From the NCBI GenBank assembly GCA_017554405.1, contig JAFZIK010000035.1, positions 1 through 39,003 on the forward strand: a DNA stretch of 39,003 bases, read 5' to 3'. The notes beneath the pieces were generated by a model. The model worked only from the letters and a program-made list of their open reading frames with translations, ran no database searches and had not been told where the DNA came from. Shown here in pieces: positions 16,669 to 39,003 of the stretch (position 1 is its first letter; the number at the start of each line of letters is the position of its first letter). The position numbers and the translations under genes are program-made. This DNA comes from Clostridia bacterium (GTDB lineage: Bacteria; Bacillota; Clostridia; Oscillospirales; Acutalibacteraceae).

Positions 16669-16755
16669 GCGGGTATGGCGGAATTGGCAGACGCGCAAGA
16701 TTCAGGTTCTTGTGGGGGCAACCCTGTACAGGTTCAAGTCCTGCTACCCGCACCA
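16669..16755 (+). tRNA. tRNA-Leu (anticodon CAG), intact, encoded by the element
   Basis: Acceptor stem GCGGGTA (16669-16675) pairs with TACCCGC (16745-16751), then discriminator A and encoded CCA (16753-16755). The anticodon stem is CAAGA/TCTTG around the loop TTCAGGT (anticodon CAG). A long variable arm (GGG...CCC), as in class II tRNAs, and the T-arm ACAGG-TTCAAGT-CCTGC follow. It has the same anticodon as the tRNA gene broken by the element, but a different acceptor stem, so it is not a restored copy of that gene. It lies inside the element between attL and int and may replace the lost decoding of CUG. Confidence 0.95.
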
Positions 16756-16855: not shown

Positions 16856-16887
16856 CTGTTAGAATTCTGTTAGAAAATCTGTTAGAA
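16856..16887 (-). repeat. Three inverted arm-type repeats next to int
   Basis: CTGTTAGAA occurs at 16856-16864, 16867-16875 and 16879-16887, spaced 11 and 12 bp. It is the reverse complement of the TTCTAACAG units found at 16617 and 32613. Helical-turn spacing and position between the core site and int fit arm-type integrase or excisionase sites. Confidence 0.55.
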
Positions 16888-16943: not shown

Positions 16944-18131
16944 TCAGTCTTCATCCTTCTTTTCGCCGAGAGTCAGGGTCTGCGCCATCGTTTCCGCCGA
17001 TTTCATCTTCGCGCCGTACTCCAGATGGCTGTAAATGTTGGCTGTCGTACCGAAATCCGAGTGACCTAACCAGTCCTGGATCTCCTTTAAGCTCACGCCG
17101 TTTGCGAGGAGCAGACTGGCGCAGGAGTGTCGCAGATCGTGAAAACGGATGTGCTTCATACCGTGCTTTTTCAGGAAATAATTGAAGTGATGCGTGACGA
17201 AATCGGGCGTCAGCAGATTGCCGAGCTCATCGACGCAGATGTAATCGAGATATTCCTTATTGTATGAATCCCGACAGAGCTTTTGCCGTTCGGTCTGCGC
17301 CTTTTTCGTCTTGATGAGAAGCTTCTCGATCTCCGGCATCAGCGGGAGCGTGCGAAGGCTCGCCTTGTTCTTGGTGGTGTCCTTCTGAACGACCATCCGC
17401 TTGCCGTCCATACCCATCATACAGACAGTATGACGGATGCAGAGCGTCTTTTCCTTGAAATCGACCGCGCTCCATTTGAGCCCGATCGCCTCGCTTCTAC
17501 GCAAGCCGTAGAACGCCGAGAGTATCACCGGCACCTCGATCGGATCGCCCTTGATCGCTTCAAAAAGCGCCTGCAGCTCGTCCCTGTCGTAGTGTTCGGC
17601 GATATACTTCTGCCTTTTCGACGGCTCGATCTTCAGCGCCGGATTCGACGGGATGTACTCCATCTTGACGGCGTAATCAAGCGCCCTGCGAATCACGGCG
17701 TGGTGCTTGTTTACCGAGTTCCACTTGATCCCCCGCTTGAGCATCGTGTTGTAGTATTCCTGAATGTCGCTCGTCCGGATATTCTGCAGAGTGATCTTCT
17801 TCTCGTCAAAATACGGGTTGATCCGCTTGTCGACGAAATACAGATAGCTCGAATAGGTCGTGATGAGGATCGTGCTCTTGACCGTTTCAAGCCAGTCGGA
17901 CAAAAACCGTGAAAACGGTATATCCGGCCGCTTGGTCGGGTCAAGGACGTATTCAAGCTCGTTTTCCATATCGTCGATCCGTTCTTTCAGGATCTCTTTC
18001 GCCTTGCGCAGATTGCCCCGGGCGTCAAGCCCCGTCGTTTGCCACTTCTGCCTTCTGACGCCGTCCTTATCGTAATAACTGATGACGGTGTACAGAAGGC
18101 CGTTCTTTTCCTGTACCGTTCCGTTTACCAT
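16944..18131 (-). CDS. Tyrosine site-specific integrase (phage/ICE type)
   Basis: About 395 residues. The N-terminal arm-binding region (YYDKDGVRRQKWQTTG) is of the AP2-like type, then a SAM-like core-binding domain (FLSDWLETVKSTILITTYSS), then the catalytic domain with Arg in GLRRSEAIGLKW, His-x-x-Arg in HDLRHSCASLL, His in LGHSDFGTTANIYSH and the nucleophile Tyr in that same segment. It would catalyse integration at the tRNA-Leu core and, with Xis, excision. The start at 18131 (AAAGGA 9 bases upstream) was chosen; an upstream in-frame extension to 18257 overlaps xis. Its C-terminal end faces attL, the usual layout. Confidence 0.92.
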   Translation of the reverse strand: MVNGTVQEKNGLLYTVISYYDKDGVRRQKWQTTGLDARGNLRKAKEILKERIDDMENELEYVLDPTKRPDIPFSRFLSDWLETVKSTILITTYSSYLYFVDKRINPYFDEKKITLQNIRTSDIQEYYNTMLKRGIKWNSVNKHHAVIRRALDYAVKMEYIPSNPALKIEPSKRQKYIAEHYDRDELQALFEAIKGDPIEVPVILSAFYGLRRSEAIGLKWSAVDFKEKTLCIRHTVCMMGMDGKRMVVQKDTTKNKASLRTLPLMPEIEKLLIKTKKAQTERQKLCRDSYNKEYLDYICVDELGNLLTPDFVTHHFNYFLKKHGMKHIRFHDLRHSCASLLLANGVSLKEIQDWLGHSDFGTTANIYSHLEYGAKMKSAETMAQTLTLGEKKDED

Positions 18132-18253
18132 AACTCTTTTCCTTTCTGCATACTTTTTCTTTTGAATCTCTCCTTCATATTCGCCGGCGCGCTTGGGATT
18201 TGCGACGGTATTCAAAGTATGTAAGTCGCGGCCTACGCCGCGGCGGACGGGTT

Positions 18254-18472
18254 TCATAGCGAAAGCAGATACTCGATGACGGACATTTTGGTGATATGAT
18301 AGCCCTTGGATTTTATAAATTTCAGAGTGCCGTCGTTTACCATGGCGTATACTTTCTTAACGCCGCATCCGAGCATCTTACAGCATTCTTTTACGGATAC
18401 CATATCCTTATACTCAGTGAACATCAACTGATAAGCGGTATCGGCGTCCATATTGATTTTTACTTTTTCCAT
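18254..18472 (-). CDS. Excisionase-like small DNA-binding protein
   Basis: A 72-residue protein with a MerR/excisionase-type helix-turn-helix: MVSVKECCKMLGCGVKKVYA (about residues 24-43) followed by a wing NDGTLKFIKSKGYHIT. AAGGAGG lies 9 bases before the ATG. It is immediately upstream of int on the same strand, the standard place for xis, and probably directs excision of the element. The small size and wing fit Tn916-type Xis relatives. Confidence 0.82.
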   Translation of the reverse strand: MEKVKINMDADTAYQLMFTEYKDMVSVKECCKMLGCGVKKVYAMVNDGTLKFIKSKGYHITKMSVIEYLLSL

Positions 18473-18625
18473 TGAGTCTTTCCTCCTTATTGGTTTTTGC
18501 CTCCTTTCCGCCGGAGGCGAGCTTGTAAGTTTCGCATTTTAAAAATCTCCTTCATATATTTGAATAATAACGGCGGGATCGGGAGGATACCCGCGTCCGG
18601 GCATCCTCCTTCTCCGTTCGTTTTG

Positions 18626-19588
18626 TCAGCTTCTTACTTCAGCCAGATAATCCTTCGTGATGCCGGGTCTGTGATGACCGAGGCGCTCACTGACTTCCTT
18701 TAATGCGTTTTTACCGTCAACATTTTTTAAGACGTTATACCTTGTCTGGGCGTAATAGTGACGAAAGCCGTGCCAGCTGGGCAGTTCGATCCGTTCCTTT
18801 TCGCCGGGATTGACCTTGGATTGGCGGTCGGGATCGGTGAACTTTCTGCGATTGTTATACATCCAGGACGACAAGGCTGCGATCTCTTTCTCGATACCGC
18901 GCTTATCTTTTTGGACGATGACACAATCGCCGGGGTTCATTCCTTTGGATCTTGCGTAGTTGATCAGACGATACACAATCTCCCTCTGCTTTTCGTTTTC
19001 GATCGGGATCGCTCGGATCTGGGTTCCTTTCCCCTTGACTGTAAGCTCTCCGTAACGAACCGCTTTCAAAAGCTGTTCGACTTTAAGCTCACACATCTCG
19101 TGAATACGGAGCCCGAACCGCTCGCCGAGTCGGATTCCGAACGCAGCGTCGATTCTGCCCATTTCGATTGCCACCGAATAAGCTTTCTCAACCTCTTCGG
19201 GGAACCAGGCGCGATTCAGCTCGCCCCGATTACGTTTCCCGATTGGAAGCCCCTTGTTATCCGGCAGACGGTTTTTTCCTCCGGAATACCCGTAGAAGAA
19301 GCGGATCGACGAAAGTTCGGTAACGATGGTGTTGGGAGTCAATTCCTTGTCCCGCATATATTCGACGTAGGCGCGAATATGCTTTCCCGAAACGTTAACG
19401 AATTTTTGCAGATGCCACTCCTCCGCGCAGTATCGGACGAAGCGGTCAGTACCTTCAAAGTAACGCGCTCGAGTCGCGATCCCTTTGGCGTTGATACTGT
19501 TTTTGAGAGACAGGATCTGATCGTGTAAATTATCGTATCCTGTTCTCACTTTGGGTTGAGAGTTTTTAGTTTTTTTCTCGTAATACAT
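18626..19588 (-). CDS. Tyrosine recombinase of the Integrase_1 type, copy A
   Basis: About 320 residues with N-terminal core-binding helices and a catalytic domain showing Arg in RFGLRIHEMCEL, His-x-x-Arg in WHGFRHYYAQTR, and His and Tyr in LGHHRPGITKDYL. It is a clear relative of the recombinase at 34905-35888: compare LNRAWFPEEVEKA with LNRAWMDSEIEKA, and GERFGLRIHE with GQRFGLRVNE. The ATG at 19588 has AAGGAG 7 bases upstream. Directly upstream are three R1 repeats and a structured tail, as for its relative. Its target is unknown; it is unlikely to be the tRNA-Leu integrase because a dedicated int/xis is present. Confidence 0.88.
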   Translation of the reverse strand: MYYEKKTKNSQPKVRTGYDNLHDQILSLKNSINAKGIATRARYFEGTDRFVRYCAEEWHLQKFVNVSGKHIRAYVEYMRDKELTPNTIVTELSSIRFFYGYSGGKNRLPDNKGLPIGKRNRGELNRAWFPEEVEKAYSVAIEMGRIDAAFGIRLGERFGLRIHEMCELKVEQLLKAVRYGELTVKGKGTQIRAIPIENEKQREIVYRLINYARSKGMNPGDCVIVQKDKRGIEKEIAALSSWMYNNRRKFTDPDRQSKVNPGEKERIELPSWHGFRHYYAQTRYNVLKNVDGKNALKEVSERLGHHRPGITKDYLAEVRS

Positions 19589-19871
19589 AAGAGAACTCCT
19601 TATTTGCGTGCGCATTCCTCATTTTGTATTTCAAGAAGCACGACGTCTTTTGCTTATGAAAACCGCAAGGAATAACGCGATATATGACAACACCTTTCCC
19701 TCGAGAACTAAAGGCGATGTTACCAAAGAATTTGTCTGAAAGTGTAAAATGGTTTGTTTTACGCTTTCATTGAAATAATGATGACAATATTCGATTGTCA
19801 AGGATCGGTTTCACGTCCGGTATCCGAATTCCCGGCGTGATATATATTGCAAGGGAGAAAGTCCCGAACAA

Positions 19872-19933
19872 TCGTTACGTTTACAATTTGCGAGTCTTTT
19901 CGGTGCCGTTTCAAGAAAACAATCACTTTTTTG
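19872..19933 (+). repeat. R1 repeat, copy a
   Basis: Core TGCCGTTTCAAGAAAACAAT at 19904-19923, preceded by CGTTACGTTTACAATTTG and followed by a TTTTTT run. It matches the other R1 copies at 20183, 20787, 36031 and 36159. Confidence 0.7.
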
Positions 19934-20182
19934 GCTCAATTTACAAATTGTTTACAGTTTTCGTCCTGAGCGTCGAAAAAGGTTTCGTGACGAAAACTAT
20001 GTAGGATTCCGCTGCGGGTTTTATGCCGCGAAAGACGCTTTACAATGAGTGGGCGGTGCGGTAGACTTTTTCGTCCGACAGGCGGGAGGCGAAGCCGTAC
20101 CCCCTGCCGACGCCTGTCCATATCCGCGCCGCCGGAGGCTCGTCGTCAAGCGGACCGTGGAATAAATCCGCGCGGAGATTTC

Positions 20183-20248
20183 TTTACGAAAAATCAATTT
20201 CAATATGGGTGCATTTTTTACGGCGTTTCAAGAAAACAATCTTTTTTA
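20183..20248 (+). repeat. R1 repeat, copy b
   Basis: It contains TCAATTTCAATATGGGTGCA, a T-run, then GGCGTTTCAAGAAAACAATC and another T-run. Closest to copy c at 20787, with which it brackets the 68-residue ORF. Confidence 0.75.
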
Positions 20249-20491
20249 CATTTTCATGGTAGACTTTTTCTTTCACATATGATAATATTCAATTGTCTGA
20301 TTCTTCTTTATCGAGTGAACATAGATAGCGCAGAATCAAACTCCTCCCGCGGAAGGTAACCGATCGCATTGACTGATATTGATTCTTAGGTGTTCACGTT
20401 CAATATTCCGGTGCTCAAAGATGGCTCTCGGTAGTCGGCACATTCCAATGCGACTTTTATCGAGGTATCTGCGGTGAAAGGAGAAAAGACT

Positions 20492-20698
20492 ATGGCTGGT
20501 AAAAAAGGTGTTTCATCAAAAACACACACAAAACAGCAGTTGGACAACTATGCGAATCAGCATAACCCCAACAATAAGGCTTACACTGCCGACAAACAAA
20601 ACCGGATCAGTACAAAAAGTTCTGCAAGGACAAAAAAGAACGAAAAGTATGATATCGGTATTTTAGACGGCGAAAGCTACGGTTGGTGTGACGACTGA
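20492..20698 (+). CDS. Small conserved-type hydrophilic protein (cassette gene)
   Basis: A 68-residue polar protein with KQQLDNYANQHNPNNKAY, then a Lys/Ser/Thr-rich middle and an acidic end (GILDGESYGWCDD). Proteins with the QLDNYANQ-NPNN pattern are common in gut Firmicutes, but I know no function. AAAGGAG lies 8-9 bases before the ATG at 20492, which I prefer to the in-frame GTG at 20474. It is flanked by R1 copies b and c and looks like a single-gene cassette in the recombinase A module. Confidence 0.7.
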   Translation: MAGKKGVSSKTHTKQQLDNYANQHNPNNKAYTADKQNRISTKSSARTKKNEKYDIGILDGESYGWCDD

Positions 20699-20786
20699 TA
20701 AGCAGGATGATCCAGAAGGAATCGGGGCATCGTAAGGTGTCCCCTTTCTTTTTCGTCATGAAGTTTATTTGTCAAAAAAGGATTTC

Positions 20787-20851
20787 TGTACGAAAATTCA
20801 ATTTCAATATGGGTGCGTTTTTGTTGCCGTTTCAAGAAAACAATATTTTCG
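20787..20851 (+). repeat. R1 repeat, copy c
   Basis: It contains TTCAATTTCAATATGGGTGC, a T-run and GCCGTTTCAAGAAAACAATA. Directly followed by the structured tail beginning near 20860. Confidence 0.75.
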
Positions 20852-20859
20852 TCACGAAA

Positions 20860-21452
20860 TTTTTTGATTATTTCAGGACGAAAATTTCGCGCCGTCATTT
20901 CGAAACGACAGTCCGGCGTCATTTCGAAGCGAAAATCGTTTGACACTTTTTTCGGGATTTCAAAACGAAAGTCATCTCAAAATTCTTATCATCCCGATGT
21001 GGAAAATCCTTCGTCATATCGAAAAGACAGCGTCAAGGCATACTTCACCCATCTGTAAAATCAGATCCGTTTCTTTGTTTTTCCATATTGAGATGGGGCG
21101 GTATGCCTTGACGTCCCGACTCCCGAAAGGTGTTCCGGGAGTCGTTTCTATTGAGTTCACTTCGTTCGCTCAATAAAAACGACTCCGCTCTCGAAACGAT
21201 AAATGACAGTTGATATCGAACCGACAGTCATTTGTCATATATCATATCGAAGCGATAACCCCTCGGCTCGGTCGTCTCCGACCGGCTCTGACGAGCAGAC
21301 CTCCGACTCCCAAACGCATCTCATACGGAAAATCACTTCAAAATTATCATCATCGGATCCCGTAAGGAGGTTAGTACTTGGCGCTCGCCTTGCGGCGGAC
21401 GCCGTGCGCATACCCTTGAAGCAAGGGTGTCCCCAGTGGACTGCGCGACGCC
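20860..21452. repeat. Structured tail, copy A (short palindromic repeats, inverted-repeat block, three-way fold)
   Basis: It starts with GGACGAAAATTTCGCGCCGT and units GTCATTTCGAAACGACAGTC (20894-20913), GTCATTTCGAAGCGAAAATC (20918-20937) and more degenerate ones to 21032. Next comes a 155-bp block in which GTCAAGGCATAC (21032-21043) pairs with GTATGCCTTGAC (21101-21112), and GGAGTCGTTTCTATTGAG (21138-21155) pairs with 21169-21186 with one mismatch. After more short repeats it ends with a three-way-junction-like fold at 21380-21449. The same order and spacing recur at 38172-38822. No gene is supported here. Confidence 0.7.
21380..21449 (+). repeat. Three-way-junction-like fold, copy A
   Basis: It follows TTAGTAC at 21371. 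Hairpin GGCGCTCGCC/GGCGGACGCC (21380-21403, one mismatch) comes first, then an outer stem GCGCA (21406-21410)/TGCGC (21442-21446) enclosing ACCCTT/AAGGGT (21412-21428) and GTCC/GGAC (21429-21441). Copy B has the same layout with different stem bases. Confidence 0.6.
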
Positions 21453-22454
21453 GAATCCCGAACGTAGTCGGTATTTCTCGGCGGGAGCTTTACGATTCGA
21501 CGCTATGCCCGACGAAAGCTGCCTTAGAAAGCCCGTGATCCGGGGACGAAAAACATACGCTTCAACTGCGGCTTACAGTTTTCGTCCTCAACCGATGCAG
21601 GTTTTCGCTTTTTGGTTTTCCTTATGAACGCTCAAAGCGATAAAGAGCGTTTACGCATTCCTTCCGATCGCGTGACAGAGGTCGAGCCCCTATCGCTTTC
21701 CTACCTGATCTCGGCTTACGGCTATTATGCGTTTGCCTTCGCCATGTGTCGTGACTCTTACGGTCGATTCCCCTGGGTCTCCCTCCGAAAATGAGGTTGT
21801 CCTTCACCTCGTTTTCGTCATGAGACCGCGCTCGCTAAATAATCAGTTGCCATATTGACTAAGCGAGCGTTTCGTTCTGCGTTCCTTCCGATCGCTTCAC
21901 CGAGGACTTGCCTCTCCGTTTTCGTACCTGTTCCGGCGTCCGGCTATTACGCTCTTGCCGGTGCCCTGTTTCGGTTAACACTTCAACCTTTTTGTTTCCC
22001 TTTTCTAAAGTTCTTTCATAATCAATCGCTCCTTCATAGAATTGAATAATGTATATTTGAGTCCCACAGATGCGAACACCCGCGGGGAAACAAAAAGCAA
22101 GTTTTGATTTATAAAACACCGTCAACGTATAGCAGAACGAACCGTACTCTTCAAGTTCAAATCATGCTAACGCTGACGGTGTTTTTTCTGTGCTTACACT
22201 GTAATATTACGGGTTTTTTCAAGTCTTTTCAAGAGCACACGAGTGGCACATAACGGTTCTGTTACGCGGTTTTCCGCACCTTTTGAGCGCCGTATTTTTC
22301 CCTGCTCGGCAATAGACGGCAATGCACGCCGAAAATTTTTTTAAAAAAATTTTTTGACAACTTTCAAACAGTGCCTCTTCTTTGAAAATTCACGCATAGT
22401 ACTTGAATTTTCACGAATTTTGTGTTACAATGCTTTTAACGTGGAGGTTTAACC
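21453..22454. other. Non-coding region after tail A, with a duplicated segment
   Basis: About 1 kb without a supported gene. An inverted repeat GGACGAAAA (near 21542)/TTTTCGTCC (near 21583) is present. A diverged direct duplication (about 21640-21755 and 21868-21975) shares GCGTT, TTCCTTCCGATCGC and GGCTATTA landmarks. A long hairpin with AAAACACCGTCA (22113-22124) pairing to TGACGGTGTTTT (22174-22185), then TTCTG, may be a terminator. From 22190 the sequence becomes AT-rich leader DNA of the AbiEi-like gene. Frames here lack ribosome binding sites or are interrupted. Confidence 0.5.
22403..22431 (+). promoter_or_regulatory. Promoter of the AbiEi-like gene
   Basis: TTGAAT (22403-22408), a 17-bp spacer and TACAAT (22426-22431), 23 bp before the start codon. 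Confidence 0.7.
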
Positions 22455-32612: not shown

Positions 32613-32643
32613 TTCTAACAGAATTCTAACAATTTTCTAACAA
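32613..32643 (+). repeat. Arm-type repeats, right end of element
   Basis: TTCTAACAG (32613-32621), TTCTAACAA (32624-32632) and TTCTAACAA (32635-32643), spaced 11 bp, then a GTGCAGAAAACGTG stretch matching CTGCAGAAAAACTG after the left pair. They lie about 140 bp inside attR, mirroring the left pair 120 bp inside attL. Confidence 0.6.
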
Positions 32644-34619: not shown

Positions 34620-34811
34620 TTAACCGGACGTATGGATGGAATCAGCGTCGTCCTTCTCAGTCTTCCTTGCTTTCCATTCATCATAATCTCTTCTGCCCTC
34701 GTCAGAGGCCAGATACTCTTGCAATATCGGAAGTAACACTCTTGCCAGTGATTCCATCTGATACTCCGGTATCCCCAGATCATTCTGAGGGATCTTTTTC
34801 TTTCTTGCCAT
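34620..34811 (-). CDS. Small conserved-type hypothetical protein next to recombinase B
   Basis: A 63-residue polar protein (MARKKKIPQNDLGIPEYQME ... LLPILQEYLASDEGRRDYDE) with a basic start and a helical, acidic middle. Similar small proteins with the pattern LLP-x-x-QEY...EEGRRDYEEWK occur near recombinase or transposon genes in gut Firmicutes; I know no function. AAAGGAG lies about 11 bases before the ATG, a little far. A longer overlapping frame (34571-34861) is less likely. It may be co-transcribed with the recombinase on the same strand. Confidence 0.6.
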   Translation of the reverse strand: MARKKKIPQNDLGIPEYQMESLARVLLPILQEYLASDEGRRDYDEWKARKTEKDDADSIHTSG

Positions 34812-34904: not shown

Positions 34905-35888
34905 TTACTCTTCGTAAATCTTCGTAATCGAGGTGCGATGATGCCCGAGGGATTCGGACGCCTCTTTTTGAACTTTCTTTTCGGGCAAGCCCTGCTCACG
35001 CATATCTTTCATCGACTTTTGAGTGTAGGTATGCCGAAGCGAGTGGAATCCGAGGCGTTTGGTAGCTCGCGGTTTCTTGCCGGGTTCGACTTTCGATGCC
35101 CTGTCGGGATCCTGGCACTTATGCTTGTGATTGCTGATCCAGCGCTCGATACGCTTCTTCTCTTCAAAGACGCTGTTCTCGTGGTTATCGCAAAGCAGAT
35201 AGTCCCCGGATTCTTTGCCTTTTTTCTTGGCATAAGCGAGAAGTTTTTCAAGCAGCGTGATCTGTTCTTTGGTCGTAACCGGAATATCTCTGCGCTGACC
35301 GCATTTACCCCTTGGAACATGAAACTGACGGGTTCGGAGTGCATATTCCAGATCTCCTACTTTGACCTGAACGCTCTCATTGACGCGCAGACCAAAACGC
35401 TGACCGAGACGAAAAGCGGCGATAATATCCAGATGATCTCCGCCGCCCTTCATCTCGTATGCGACGCGGCAAGCTTTTTCGATCTCCGAATCCATCCACG
35501 CTCGGTTGAGCGCACCGGGATGACGCTTTTCAAGATGTAATTCTTTGTTATCCTTGGGCATCTCATTTTTTCCGCCGAGCTTATCGTTGTAATACCGTAT
35601 CGCGGACAGCGTGGCATAGATATATGACGTAGAGAGACCTTTCGCTTTCATTTCTTTTGCAAAAGCGTAAAAGTGACGGGGTTCTACGTTCTTGAGGTTT
35701 TGCAGAGAATAGTTCTCGGCAAGAAAGCGGCAGAATCTTTTCTCGGCGGCATAATACGGCTTTCTCGTATCGATCGAGCCGGAACGATCGTGACGAAAAA
35801 CTCTATGCGCTTGCCTTTCAAGATTCTTATACAAGCCACGGGTTCTTTCGGCTTGCTGTTCGGGCGTTAACTTTTCTTTGTTACTCAT
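34905..35888 (-). CDS. Tyrosine recombinase of the Integrase_1 type, copy B
   Basis: About 327 residues. It has a helical core-binding domain (YYAAEKRFCRFLAENYSLQN), then a catalytic domain with Arg in RFGLRVNESVQV, His-x-x-Arg in FHSLRHTYTQKS, and His and Tyr in LGHHRTSITKIYEE. It is related to copy A (18626-19588) along the whole length, with conserved blocks LNRAW, RFGLR and SLGHHR. AAAGGAG is 10 bases before the ATG at 35888; a longer frame to 35942 is less likely. Upstream lie R1 repeats, a TIR gene, a toxin-antitoxin pair and a structured tail, paralleling the layout of copy A. Confidence 0.88.
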   Translation of the reverse strand: MSNKEKLTPEQQAERTRGLYKNLERQAHRVFRHDRSGSIDTRKPYYAAEKRFCRFLAENYSLQNLKNVEPRHFYAFAKEMKAKGLSTSYIYATLSAIRYYNDKLGGKNEMPKDNKELHLEKRHPGALNRAWMDSEIEKACRVAYEMKGGGDHLDIIAAFRLGQRFGLRVNESVQVKVGDLEYALRTRQFHVPRGKCGQRRDIPVTTKEQITLLEKLLAYAKKKGKESGDYLLCDNHENSVFEEKKRIERWISNHKHKCQDPDRASKVEPGKKPRATKRLGFHSLRHTYTQKSMKDMREQGLPEKKVQKEASESLGHHRTSITKIYEE

Positions 35889-36030
35889 ACAGTCTTTTCT
35901 CCTTTCTTTGAAACTCGGACTGTTGTCCTGTATGTATAACATACGGGCATTTTTCGTGACGAATCAAGAAAACAATCAGATCATGTGGAAAAATCTTTTG
36001 CTTCCAATTTTGTGACGAAAATCCCCGGTT

Positions 36031-36091
36031 CGTACGGTTACAATTTACGGCGCATTTTGATGTCGTTTCAGGAAAACCATCTTTTTTGAGG
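36031..36091 (+). repeat. R1 repeat, copy d
   Basis: CGTACGGTTACAATTTACGG, then GATGTCGTTTCAGGAAAACC and ATC followed by a T-run. It aligns with copies a to c with a few substitutions. Confidence 0.65.
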
Positions 36092-36306: not shown

Positions 36307-36335
36307 AGGAGAAAAAAGTGATGAGGAATCGAAAT

Positions 36336-37361
36336 ATGAAAGTTTTTATCAGTTGGTCTGGCAAAATAAGTTGGCAAGTAGCAGTAGTATTCAGAGACTG
36401 GCTACCTTCTGTTATTCAATCTGTTGAGCCTTATGTTTCTTCCGAAGATATAGACAAAGGGGCGAGATGGAGCACAGATATTGCAAAAGAGCTTGAGAAC
36501 TCAACATTTGGTATTCTATGCGTTACTAGAGATAATCTAGAGGCGCCGTGGTTATCTTTTGAGGCTGGTGCGCTATCAAAAACTATGGAGAAATCATTTG
36601 TCACTCCGTTTTTGTTCGATATAAAGCGATCGGAAGTTCAAGGACCAATATTGCAATTTCAATCCACTATTTTTCAAAAAGATGATATTAAAAAAATGGT
36701 TCAGACCTTGAATAAGGCAAGCGGAGAAACTGGTATATCTGATCAACGGCTCGAAAAATCATTTGAAGTATGGTATCCAACTCTTGAATCAGAGCTAAAC
36801 AAAATAAAAAATGAAAGTACTAATGCGGATGTGGCTATCTCCAACGAGGATGCGAATCACTCGTCGGAAATGTTGGAAGAGATTTTGGAATTATCTAGGG
36901 ATAATCAAAAACTGTTGAGAAGCCCTGATTCGAGAATATATGATGATTTAGAAAAAGTTAAAGATTATCTTGAACATATCTCTATGAGAAATGAAAGTCT
37001 TTATGAGAAAAGGAGGATGTCAAGAAGATATAATTCTATGTTTTTAGAAGAAATTATGCATATGGATAGTTTACGAAGATCATATGCGTTTTTGATGACA
37101 CTTAGCCTCTTGAAAGAAGATTTTCCTTGGGTTTATGATATGGGGAAAGAATTAATTGAAATACTAAAAAGTGATAAGTATCCTGAAGAAAAGTCTTTGT
37201 CTATCAGAGAATTTAAAGAACTGGTCGATTTTACTTTCGGTCATCCTATTATGCGTGATATGTTTGGTAGAAATAAAGATAGTGTTGTTTTTATGAAAGA
37301 AGTGCCATATTATCTGATTCAATGTTTAGACGATATTTCTAATGAAGATGGAATAATGTAG
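36336..37361 (+). CDS. TIR-domain protein, probable defence effector
   Basis: A protein of about 341 residues. The first 100 residues are a TIR domain: MKVFISWSGKISWQVAVVF (first strand and helix), VEPYVSSEDIDKGARWSTDI (BB-loop region) and LEAPWLSFEAGALSK, where the Glu fits the catalytic position of NAD-cleaving TIR domains. Residues about 165-341 are mostly helical (LSRDNQKLLRSPDSRIYDDL), perhaps a sensing or oligomerising part that I do not recognise. The ATG at 36336 has GAGGA upstream; earlier in-frame starts at 36318/36321 fall almost on the predicted transcription start. A+T-rich. Sitting between R1 repeats and a toxin-antitoxin pair, it is likely imported. Confidence 0.82.
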   Translation: MKVFISWSGKISWQVAVVFRDWLPSVIQSVEPYVSSEDIDKGARWSTDIAKELENSTFGILCVTRDNLEAPWLSFEAGALSKTMEKSFVTPFLFDIKRSEVQGPILQFQSTIFQKDDIKKMVQTLNKASGETGISDQRLEKSFEVWYPTLESELNKIKNESTNADVAISNEDANHSSEMLEEILELSRDNQKLLRSPDSRIYDDLEKVKDYLEHISMRNESLYEKRRMSRRYNSMFLEEIMHMDSLRRSYAFLMTLSLLKEDFPWVYDMGKELIEILKSDKYPEEKSLSIREFKELVDFTFGHPIMRDMFGRNKDSVVFMKEVPYYLIQCLDDISNEDGIM

Positions 37362-37443: not shown

Positions 37444-37764
37444 TCAACTTTCGTTCAGATGTTTTTCGAGGTCTCTTGCGCCGTACATAATACGGATAAT
37501 CCTTACAGCGTTCTTTTCTTCATTGACGGTATAGAACACAAGGAAGTTCTTGACCGGCAGTTTTCGTAGCCCCCGGCTTCGCCACGGTTCGTTTTCATAC
37601 AGAGCGTTACGGAGCGGAAAGGTCTTAAGCGTATGTACGGCGGCGATGATGTTTTGATACATCTTTCCCGCCGTCACCGGTTCTTGCAGGCTAAAAGCGA
37701 TATACTCATAGATTTCTTCCAGGTCGTCCCGCGCTTTCGCGGTATAGAAGACGTCATAACTCAT
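37444..37764 (-). CDS. RelE/ParE-family toxin
   Basis: A 106-residue protein with the RelE/ParE fold pattern: YDVFYTAKARDDLEEIYEYI (first strand and helix, residues 3-22), LRKLPVKNFLVFYTVNEEKN (residues about 71-90) and VRIIRIMYGARDLEKHL at the end. RelE members cut mRNA at the ribosome; ParE members attack gyrase. Sequence alone does not decide here, though the Arg/Lys and C-terminal RIMYGARD pattern fits the RelE/ParE superfamily well. Its ATG overlaps the antitoxin stop by 4 bp (ATGA). Confidence 0.88.
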   Translation of the reverse strand: MSYDVFYTAKARDDLEEIYEYIAFSLQEPVTAGKMYQNIIAAVHTLKTFPLRNALYENEPWRSRGLRKLPVKNFLVFYTVNEEKNAVRIIRIMYGARDLEKHLNES

Positions 37765-38066
37765 ACGTTAAACCTGCTTTTCATATGTGATTCTACATCA
37801 GCAGCGGAGTAGAGGTTTCCAGATTCAACGTCATCAAATCCTTTTCGGATCTCGGAATCAAACTGCTCTTTAGTCAGTTCTCCGACCGCGAGCGGGCGGC
37901 GCAGCGGCAGCTTCATATCAAAAGGAATACCGTTATGCATCACAACCTGACGCAGAAACATACCGATTGCGTTTGACATGGGGATGCCGAGTTGATCCAA
38001 AATCTCTTCCGCATGTTCTTTTACAACGGGATCGACCCTCGTATAAATATTTGCTGTTCTTGCCAT
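37761..38066 (-). CDS. RelB/DinJ-family antitoxin
   Basis: A 101-residue protein with an N-terminal ribbon-helix-helix: TANIYTRVDPVVKEHAEEIL (residues 4-23) and GIPMSNAIGMFLRQVVMHNG (residues about 27-46), as in RelB/DinJ. The C-terminal part would wrap the toxin. The ATG at 38066 (AGAGGTG upstream) is chosen over a frame extension to 38126 that covers the promoter. It is the first gene of the antitoxin-toxin operon and probably its autorepressor. Confidence 0.9.
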   Translation of the reverse strand: MARTANIYTRVDPVVKEHAEEILDQLGIPMSNAIGMFLRQVVMHNGIPFDMKLPLRRPLAVGELTKEQFDSEIRKGFDDVESGNLYSAADVESHMKSRFNV

Positions 38067-38097
38067 GGCAATCACCTCTTTCTTCAAGTTCACTATT

Positions 38098-38126
38098 AGT
38101 ATATCACATTTGATTGCGAATAGCAA
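38098..38126 (-). promoter_or_regulatory. Promoter and operator of the antitoxin-toxin operon
   Basis: On the minus strand TTGCTA (38121-38126), a 17-bp spacer and TATACT (38098-38103). The palindrome TTGCTATTCGCAA (38114-38126) overlaps the -35 box, a natural operator for a RelB-type repressor. Confidence 0.65.
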
Positions 38127-38171
38127 GCATTTTGCAAAAGTTCATAAAAATTTTTCATCTTGATCTCGTGA

Positions 38172-38822
38172 CGAAAATTTTGCGCCGTCATATCGAAACG
38201 AAAATCCTTCTCATCATATCGAACAGAGAATCCGGCGACGCAGAAGACCTTTTCAGCCGACTGTACGGTGTTTGATACAGATTGCACGCTCTCGGTTCCA
38301 TCGTATCAAGCACCGAACAGCTGGAACACGCCGCAGGCGTGCAAAAAAATCGCGCGGTCATATCGAATCGACAGTCCGGCGTCATCTCGAACAGAAAGTC
38401 GTTCCGAACTTTTTGGATATCGAAATGACAATCATCTCGAAAAGAGTCATATCGAACATAGTATTCTCTGTCATATCAAAAAGACAGTCGCAAGGCATAG
38501 GAAAGCCTGTGGCGTTAAGGGCATTTTTAACGTCGTTTTACTCGTTTTCTTTTTCCCACATATCCTGGATGCCTTGCGGGACGGCTCTTTCGGCTGTTGC
38601 CTCGGAGCCGTTTCTATCCCACCTACGGCGGGGATAGAAACGGCTCCGCGTCCAAAATGATAGTCATGTATTATATCTCAAAGAGAAAGTCATCGTCATA
38701 TCAAAGAGCCGGTCATATTGAATTGTTCCATTAAAAGAGCTTAGTACGATGGGAAGCTCACTGCTCCCAGCGCATACCTGCCGCTTGACAGGCGTCGGCA
38801 TAGCCGACAGCGCAATGCCGTA
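38172..38822. repeat. Structured tail, copy B
   Basis: It opens with GACGAAAATTTTGCGCCGTC, nearly the same as the start of copy A. Units include GTCATATCGAAACGAAAATC (38187-38206), GTCATATCGAATCGACAGTC (38357-38376) and GTCATCTCGAACAGAAAGTC (38381-38400). The inverted-repeat block is 157 bp: GCAAGGCAT (38490-38498) pairs with ATGCCTTGC (38569-38577), and GAGCCGTTTCTATCCC (38605-38620) pairs perfectly with 38631-38646. More short repeats follow, then a three-way fold at 38751-38813. Stem bases differ from copy A while pairing is kept. No gene is supported in this stretch. Confidence 0.7.
38751..38813 (+). repeat. Three-way-junction-like fold, copy B
   Basis: It follows TTAGTAC at 38741. Hairpin GGGA-GC/GC-TCCC (38751-38768, one bulge), outer stem GCGC (38770-38773)/GCGC (38810-38813), inner hairpins CCTG/CAGG (38777-38792) and GTCGGC/GCCGAC (38794-38808). 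Order and loop positions match copy A at 21380-21449. Confidence 0.6.
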
Positions 38823-38862
38823 TACTTACCGTTCGATAAGCCCGGAAATCCGCCTCCGGAAC

Positions 38863-39003
38863 TGATATGCACCCCAAAAGTTAGACACTTTTGGAGGTGC
38901 ATATTTTTATGGCAAAAAAGGGGCAAAAGTTCAAAACGTACTCGCCGGAATTCAAAGAATGTGTTATACTGGATATGCGAGAACACCGTTTAGGTATAAT
39001 GGA
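38863..39003 (+). mobile_element. Left end of an IS3-family insertion sequence (truncated by window)
   Basis: TGATATGCACCCCAAAAG (38863-38880) has the form of an IS3/IS150-type terminal inverted repeat and is followed 46 bp later by an OrfA start. It sits right after structured tail B. The rest is outside the window. Confidence 0.75.
38909..39003 (+). CDS. IS3-family transposase OrfA, N-terminal fragment
   Basis: ATG at 38909 with GGAGGTGC 9 bases upstream opens a frame that runs off the window (31 full codons). It reads MAKKGQKFKTYSPEFKECVI and on, the start of an IS3-type OrfA helix-turn-helix protein (YSPEFKxxV motif), which binds the IS ends. Confidence 0.8.
   Translation, partial: MAKKGQKFKTYSPEFKECVILDMREHRLGIM

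Follow-up and report, generated by a model that had tools for sequence, protein, structure and literature searches.

A conserved repeat-and-hairpin element beside a tyrosine recombinase and a variable gene slot in gut Oscillospirales

What does a tyrosine recombinase do when it stands, twice in one stretch of DNA, between repeats, unrelated genes and a long conserved non-coding region? The question is raised by a stretch of 39,003 nucleotides from a Clostridia bacterium of the Oscillospirales (contig JAFZIK010000035.1; hereafter the window, contig C29 of a 1.67-Mb metagenome-type assembly). It holds two modules, A and B, each composed of a recombinase gene, int2, copies of a 50-nucleotide repeat called R1, a set of cargo genes and a non-coding tail. 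The sequence-only reading that drew attention to the pair took it for a gene-capture platform reminiscent of integrons. The twin layout that it described is borne out in both modules, and the tails do correspond; the part given to R1 has to be reconsidered. We found that the tail, which accompanies Int2 and carries two hairpins with compensating base changes, is the strongest new result of the analysis. The parts of the modules are as follows:

18626..19615, minus strand: Int2 of module A, tyrosine recombinase, open reading frame of 329 amino acids with a second ATG at 19588
19881..19930, minus strand: R1a, promoter/operator-like, leftwards towards int2
20177..20247, minus strand: R1b, promoter/operator-like, TTGAAA-18-CATATT leftwards
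20492..20698, plus strand: 68-residue cargo gene, no Pfam or NCBIfam family
20781..20851, minus strand: R1c, promoter/operator-like, TTGAAA-18-CATATT leftwards
20870..21201: tail A, repeat units followed by hairpins P1 and P2 (21025-21201)
21202..21560: further repeat units and hairpins of tail A, boundary approximate
34905..35888 (alternative start 35942), minus strand: Int2 of module B, by Pfam match and homology to Int2 A
35934..36087, minus strand: R1d and R1e, by repeat comparison
36318..37361, plus strand: TIR protein, cargo of module B (PF13676; PADLOC TIR-TM, 1.8e-114)
37444..38126, minus strand: RelE/ParE toxin and RelB antitoxin, cargo of module B (Pfam/NCBIfam matches)
38163..38870: tail B, with hairpins P1 and P2 at 38482-38662

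Int2 and the tail that accompanies it

The two Int2 proteins, the only ones found in the window's genome, are 38% identical, and both contain Phage_integrase (PF00589) and SAM-like N-terminal domains in Pfam. Tyrosine recombinases share an R-K-H-R-H-Y motif, and the corresponding Int2 residues (R170, K196, H282, R285, H314 and Y323) are invariant in 12 sequences. The label Integrase_1, given to the enzymes earlier, must be dropped, as neither matches that Pfam model at E 1e-3. With the integron integrase model TIGR02249, Int2 A gave no match at E 0.01 and Int2 B scored 18.5 bits against a cut-off of 265.

Int2 was matched at E 1e-3 in 22 of 99 related genomes; matches with E below 1e-10 come from 18 genomes, every one a member of the window's genus. 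A scan with one genome per species yielded 99 relatives, of which 80 were kept, mostly from Clostridia/Oscillospiraceae genomes of herbivore guts; isolates with Int2 include Oscillibacter valericigenes An860 and An890 and Flavonifractor An306 and An92. We divided the 80 by their identity to Int2 A. The 43 with at least 36%, together with both window modules and locus L043, make up a closer set of 46 loci; the 37 below 36%, with L092 and L094, form a lower (Oscillibacter/Flavonifractor) branch of 39. Two records labelled Alphaproteobacteria and Opitutales (L071 and L079) contain a Clostridia-like Int2 block and are probably misplaced contigs in bins.

The tails of the window agree at 84% identity between 20870-20914 and 38163-38207 and at 82% between 20881-20951 and 38344-38414, and the same two hairpins, P1 and P2, fold in both. 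In 36 of the 46 closer-set loci, GTCATATCRAAACGA-type units form an array 5' of Int2; units such as GTCATATCRAAACGAYAGTC nearly all occupy one strand, often at a spacing of 24 nucleotides. The hairpins were examined in a structure alignment of 20 sequences (A4), from which L078 was left out for want of a second hairpin. Twenty of the 38 pairs are altered on both sides (52 cells, score 0.194), a score reached by none of 500 shuffles, whereas structures slid by one to three columns gave at most 14 pairs, 17 cells and a score of 0.067. Likewise, 88.6% of cells are able to pair in the P1/P2 structure against a maximum of 45.6% in the slid ones. Within the otherwise compensating P2 stem, GTTTC:GAAAC is nearly invariant.

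The association with Int2 extends beyond the aligned sequences. A covariance model of the hairpins found strong matches in eight of the 99 related genomes, seven of them with Int2; in the eighth, G059, the match lies at the extreme end of a contig. Two weak matches (E 0.004 and 0.008) fell in genomes without Int2. New matches on which the model had not been trained (L035, L036, L082, L084 and L090) are all situated 5' of Int2. The lower branch lacks tail units, single stray matches excepted, and still keeps the first P1 arm, GGGCRYAGTNCRCCC, with GTTTC 31-32 nucleotides on, beside Int2 in 24 of its 39 loci. In 22 lower-branch genomes this motif has 22 sites with at most one mismatch, and all 20 sites that were fetched have Int2 on the same 3-kb stretch. 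This implies that the tail holds an old, Int2-linked motif. No pairing partner for the motif was found above shuffles in the Oscillibacter branch. Phages and viral contigs gave no match to the tail region, three weak Int2 relatives and one motif match without Int2.

Contigs often stop in or near the tail: less than 1 kb remains 5' of Int2 in 14 of 43 closer loci, but 3' of it in 3 of 43, a pattern that repeated DNA would produce. In locus L096 (G170:C194) the Int2-linked motif occurs twice in direct orientation, 1,024 bp apart, with a third, inverted copy between; these copies are a possible trace of insertion in the Oscillibacter branch.

The cargo slot and the R1 repeat

The DNA between Int2 and the tail is a variable slot, and we consider it very probable that this is a real feature of the family. 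In 29 of the 36 loci with a tail the first unit lies within 610 bp of Int2; in seven it lies more than 1 kb away, the interval being filled with cargo. An automatic rule had given 11 filled loci; in four of these (L060, L061, L075 and L078) the supposed cargo consists of open reading frames of 60-91 residues overlapping the little DNA that precedes a tail no more than 610 bp from Int2, and they were excluded. Besides the 68-residue gene of module A and the TIR, RelE and RelB genes of module B, the filled slots hold a 535-residue protein of no family (L054), Phd with Fic/Doc (L056), an XRE protein (L071), a Schlafen-like protein with another (L085) and a sigma-70-like protein (L087). Compared with one another, 11 cargo proteins gave no match at 1e-3, and the 68-residue protein is matched in only two of 119 genomes, its own included.

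Close relatives differ at this very border. The int2 genes of L053 and L054 are 90.6% identical in DNA, and the two loci agree up to ...GTTTTCAAGAAAA, past which some 2 kb carrying the 535-residue gene follow in L054 before it rejoins L053 at CGTNACGAAAATC. The same contrast between cargo and no cargo, with other ends, is seen in L072/L071 and L074/L087 (87.9% and 80.9% in Int2 DNA). The right breakpoints of L054, L071 and L087 fall at ACGAAAAT motifs, and a set of these motifs with spacings of 23, 33-34 and 18 is complete in 8 of the 46 loci (L059, L062, L067, L074, L077, L078, L081 and L087). Direct ACGAAAAT repeats were considered as cargo-end sites and rejected, since flanking repeats do not exceed shuffles: the best ones around the cargo of B, L054, L056, L071, L085 and L087 were matched by 24 to 97 of 100 shuffles. 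In the Flavonifractor-type branch, four loci (L116, L118, L120 and L121) share a 425-residue ATPase-like gene (about 1.34 kb, 85-91% DNA identity) lying 1.07-1.98 kb from Int2 after differing DNA, another sign of a variable slot.

R1 was the natural candidate for the site of exchange. Its five copies start at 19881, 20198, 20802, 35934 and 36038; R1b and R1c, 604 nucleotides apart, are 88% identical over 69 nucleotides, and module B has further R1-like copies, one of them inverted. Read on the other strand, R1 shows GTTTTC-TTGAAA followed 18 nucleotides on by a -10-like hexamer. Similarity to TATAAT peaks 18 nucleotides past TTGAAA (mean 3.44 of 6, with 14 of 25 sites scoring at least 4 of 6), and an independent scan returned R1b and R1c as minus-strand TTGAAA-18-CATATT. 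These 25 sites come from a list of 31, outside which the module B copies stand; near copies (L063 and L078) and degenerate or chance cores (L053:513, L054:2427, L187:1730 and L189:8000) were left out. Classed by hand, 22 of the 31 sites directly precede a leftward gene, namely int2 (7), an XRE gene (11) or an xis-like gene (4). The exact 13-mer STTTCAAGAAAAC occurs 34 times in 36 genomes. Fifteen of the 34 (loci assigned by hand) are within 3 kb 5' of an Int2, R1 having one orientation there; the gene surroundings of five among the 19 others were checked. In L186, L188 and L189, R1 precedes an xis-int1 or serine-recombinase pair with no Int2 between, and in L184 the 13-mer lies inside a gene; the fifth locus is L187, described below. 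The block shared by L058, L059, L061, L063 and L065 ends at R1, immediately 5' of an XRE gene, as does that shared by L073 and L078, which fits a block ending with its own promoter. Single-strand folding of R1a, R1b and R1c was equalled or bettered by 146, 141 and 168 of 200 shuffles; these copies are thus not attC-like. R1d did fold better than shuffles (1 of 200 as good). On its sequence form and surroundings, R1 is probably a promoter/operator rather than a recombination site.

A scheme with R1 as an attachment core, complete with arms and spacer, was dropped on three counts: R1 also stands where there is no Int2, has the form of a promoter and flanks cargo in module A only. R1 copies lying 10-13 kb away from Int2, seen in two genomes, had also been entertained as the far end of the cargo; the same sequence stands elsewhere in a third genome and so probably belongs to a gene region that is conserved. 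The idea of an autoregulator in the window genome (G000) was rejected, since no close homologue of the L073 XRE protein is present there; such a homologue was found in 3 of 8 genomes. Several loci deserve a separate mention. L043 (G058:C2) has R1 at -971, 136, 259, 1577 and 1931 relative to Int2, with a run of genes beyond the last that includes one for an Hsp70-like protein; L047 (G058:C8) has an internally deleted Int2 adjoining an intact-looking XRE gene and R1. In L185 (G059:C13) the contig starts in the tail and continues with an XRE gene and R1, then, 35 bp on, the start of an FRG-domain-like gene (by eye). A ychF-like GTPase gene (by eye) stands beside Int1-Xis-R1 in L186 (G105:C39) and beside R1 in L187 (G113:C99); its end may be an insertion spot, and L186 has a second integrase gene 440 bp past R1.

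An integrase-end module and its rivals

Module A lies at the left end of an island inserted at a tRNA-Leu gene, and the surroundings of the two modules bring in the following features:

16669..16755, plus strand: tRNA-Leu (cag), left junction of the island holding module A
16944..18257, minus strand: Int1, tyrosine integrase of the island (Pfam PF00589, 1.8e-23)
18254..18472, minus strand: Xis-like small protein (TIGR01764 excise, 29.6 bits against a cut-off of 28.8)
18500..18517: hairpin CCTCC-N-GCCGGAGG, at which the conserved block ends on the left
34620..34811, minus strand: 63-residue protein 3' of Int2 B, no Pfam or NCBIfam family

The right end of the island is marked near 32.8 kb by a diverged copy of the tRNA-Leu 3' half, and a 19-nucleotide repeat at 16857-16875 recurs inverted at 32613. 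An integrase at a tRNA, an xis gene and a repeated tRNA end on the opposite side make this an integrase-type genomic island. The other island genes specify AbiEi-like and Fic proteins, a type III restriction pair, and a methyltransferase and an ATPase resembling the BbrUII/HgiDII enzymes. Module B stands outside, beyond the island, adjoining a dGTPase-like gene, so that the description of one module inside the tRNA-Leu element and one outside it was accurate. By eye, a protein resembling the 63-residue one of module B is present 3' of Int2 in L060. Positions 38870-39003, with which the contig ends, look, again by eye only, like the beginning of an IS3-type element, with an inverted end and the first part of an orfA-like gene; the right flank of tail B is therefore beyond the window.

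The company of an integrase is common. Of 87 loci searched with four Int1 queries, 55 have a homologue 3' of Int2 (39 of the tyrosine and 16 of the serine type), which shares the strand of Int2 in 52 of the 55. Similar Int2-tail blocks are joined to either type of Int1, as in L053 (serine) and L054 (tyrosine), which have a common Int2 block from about -1090, and as in L058 and L061. The block joins the next gene immediately 5' of its ribosome-binding region, at the CCTCC-GCCGGAGG hairpin, which is found 3' of Int2 in 20 of 49 closer-group loci, window module A included.

The reading that we favor, and to which we would give an even chance, is that the modules are the integrase-end module of Oscillospirales genomic islands. 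Int2 would be an accessory tyrosine recombinase, often heading a leftward int2-xis-int1 operon; R1 would serve as promoter/operator for this operon, or for the gene of a small XRE regulator, and contain no recombination core. The tail, with its TTTCGAAA-containing repeat units and two compensating hairpins, would be a conserved cis element whose motif stays beside Int2 in distant relatives, presumably a site acted on by Int2 or by the XRE protein. Defence and toxin-antitoxin genes would be swapped between islands in the slot from the Int2 promoter to the tail and also beyond the outermost R1. Several observations weigh against parts of this reading. Ten of the 46 closer loci have no tail unit (five of the ten have less than 700 bp of flank), and the hairpin model gave no match in 11 of the 18 genomes whose Int2 is clear. 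The -10 signal of R1 has lesser peaks at 20 and 23 nucleotides in sites drawn from loci already under study, and neither R1c nor the copy at 1577 in L043 is followed by a leftward gene. Furthermore, the 69-nucleotide direct repeats R1b and R1c around one gene are the expected remnant of integration at R1, and the homology of L033 and L034 stops exactly at the R1 core.

These last points, with the one orientation of R1 upstream of Int2 and the shared blocks that stop there, are what would be expected if Int2 inserted circular cassettes at R1 in the manner of integrons, leaving each between direct copies. We regard this as improbable. R1 lies on both sides of the cargo in module A alone, the repeats of the six other filled loci being within chance; an R1 core is missing between Int2 and the tail in most loci free of cargo, and R1 precedes integrase operons devoid of Int2. 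The failure of R1a-c to fold and the score of Int2, far under the integron-integrase cut-off, point the same way. The promoter evidence and the absence of flanking R1 from six of the seven filled loci thus weaken the integron-like reading: of the cassette platform, the variable, unrelated cargo and its differences between near relatives at the border survive, and R1 as capture site does not. Across genomes, the tail keeps company with the recombinase family; R1 is also found in places lacking Int2.

Cargo might instead be swapped by homologous exchange between the conserved Int2 and tail flanks, Int2 serving the island alone as co-integrase, resolvase or in copy control. We rate this as less likely than not. 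In many loci Int2 shares an operon with the integrase that belongs to the island itself, the slot has conserved flanks on both sides, and no significant cargo-end repeats occur outside module A; yet the long tail and its strict link to Int2 go unexplained, as do the ACGAAAAT breakpoints. That Int2 itself moves the cargo seems doubtful. A large structured RNA, perhaps a leftward int2 leader transcribed from the outer R1 promoter and controlling or guiding the recombinase, would account for the covariation of the tail, for plus-strand folding in excess of shuffles (z-scores of -4.6 and -6.1) and for the wobble-compatible changes, 22 of which favor the minus strand and 11 the plus, a small bias among cells that are not independent. 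However, the hairpins are alike on both strands, so that DNA cruciforms explain the covariation equally well. Rfam gave no match in window positions 18500-39003 up to E 1, and only T-boxes at gathering scores on eight relatives; in the Oscillibacter branch the motif is kept with no pairing partner. Such an RNA is unlikely in our view. Finally, one could imagine Int2 and the tail as a gene-capture machine of a new kind, in which the recombinase acts on an extended cis element that depends on its fold, be it hairpin DNA or RNA, inserts defence cassettes beside it and travels between islands with unrelated primary integrases; we think this a long shot.

Known systems and significance

Integrons consist of IntI, attI and attC cassettes. 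Like them, the modules have a tyrosine recombinase gene read away from a slot of variable genes, which often point the opposite way, and module A has one repeat copied at intervals. Unlike them, they have a recombinase that hardly resembles IntI, no attC-like fold in R1 and no array of many cassettes; moreover, a long conserved tail is present and Int2 is tied to xis-int1. The dif/pdif modules of Acinetobacter plasmids, each lying between inverted sites, use the host XerC/XerD and 28-bp dif-like sites. They resemble the present case as small exchangeable toxin-antitoxin modules beside recombinase-type sites; here, in contrast, a dedicated recombinase is encoded and flanking sites are not apparent, the only inverted elements noted being R1-like copies in module B. 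Genomic islands have defence hot spots, and TIR, toxin-antitoxin, restriction and AbiE-type cargo at a fixed place recalls them, except that what sets the place here is a recombinase together with a conserved non-coding element of its own. Adjoining recombinase genes at one end are also reported for elements that have several tyrosine recombinases, among them the strand-biased circularizing elements and the recombinase-in-trio (PMC10214605); they differ in that Int1 may be of the serine type in our loci and Int2 has a repeat/hairpin tail. At the level of titles and beginnings of abstracts, the literature offered no description of an Int2-tail module.

The slot gives a name to a place where gut Oscillospirales swap defence and toxin-antitoxin genes, and Int2 with its conserved cis element could be the agent of the exchange. 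R1 provides an example of a repeat near a recombinase that can be read as an attachment site and is more likely a promoter. The tail, whose covariation is on a par with that of many named structured RNAs, matches none of them; since it is tied to one enzyme family, its role can be tested.

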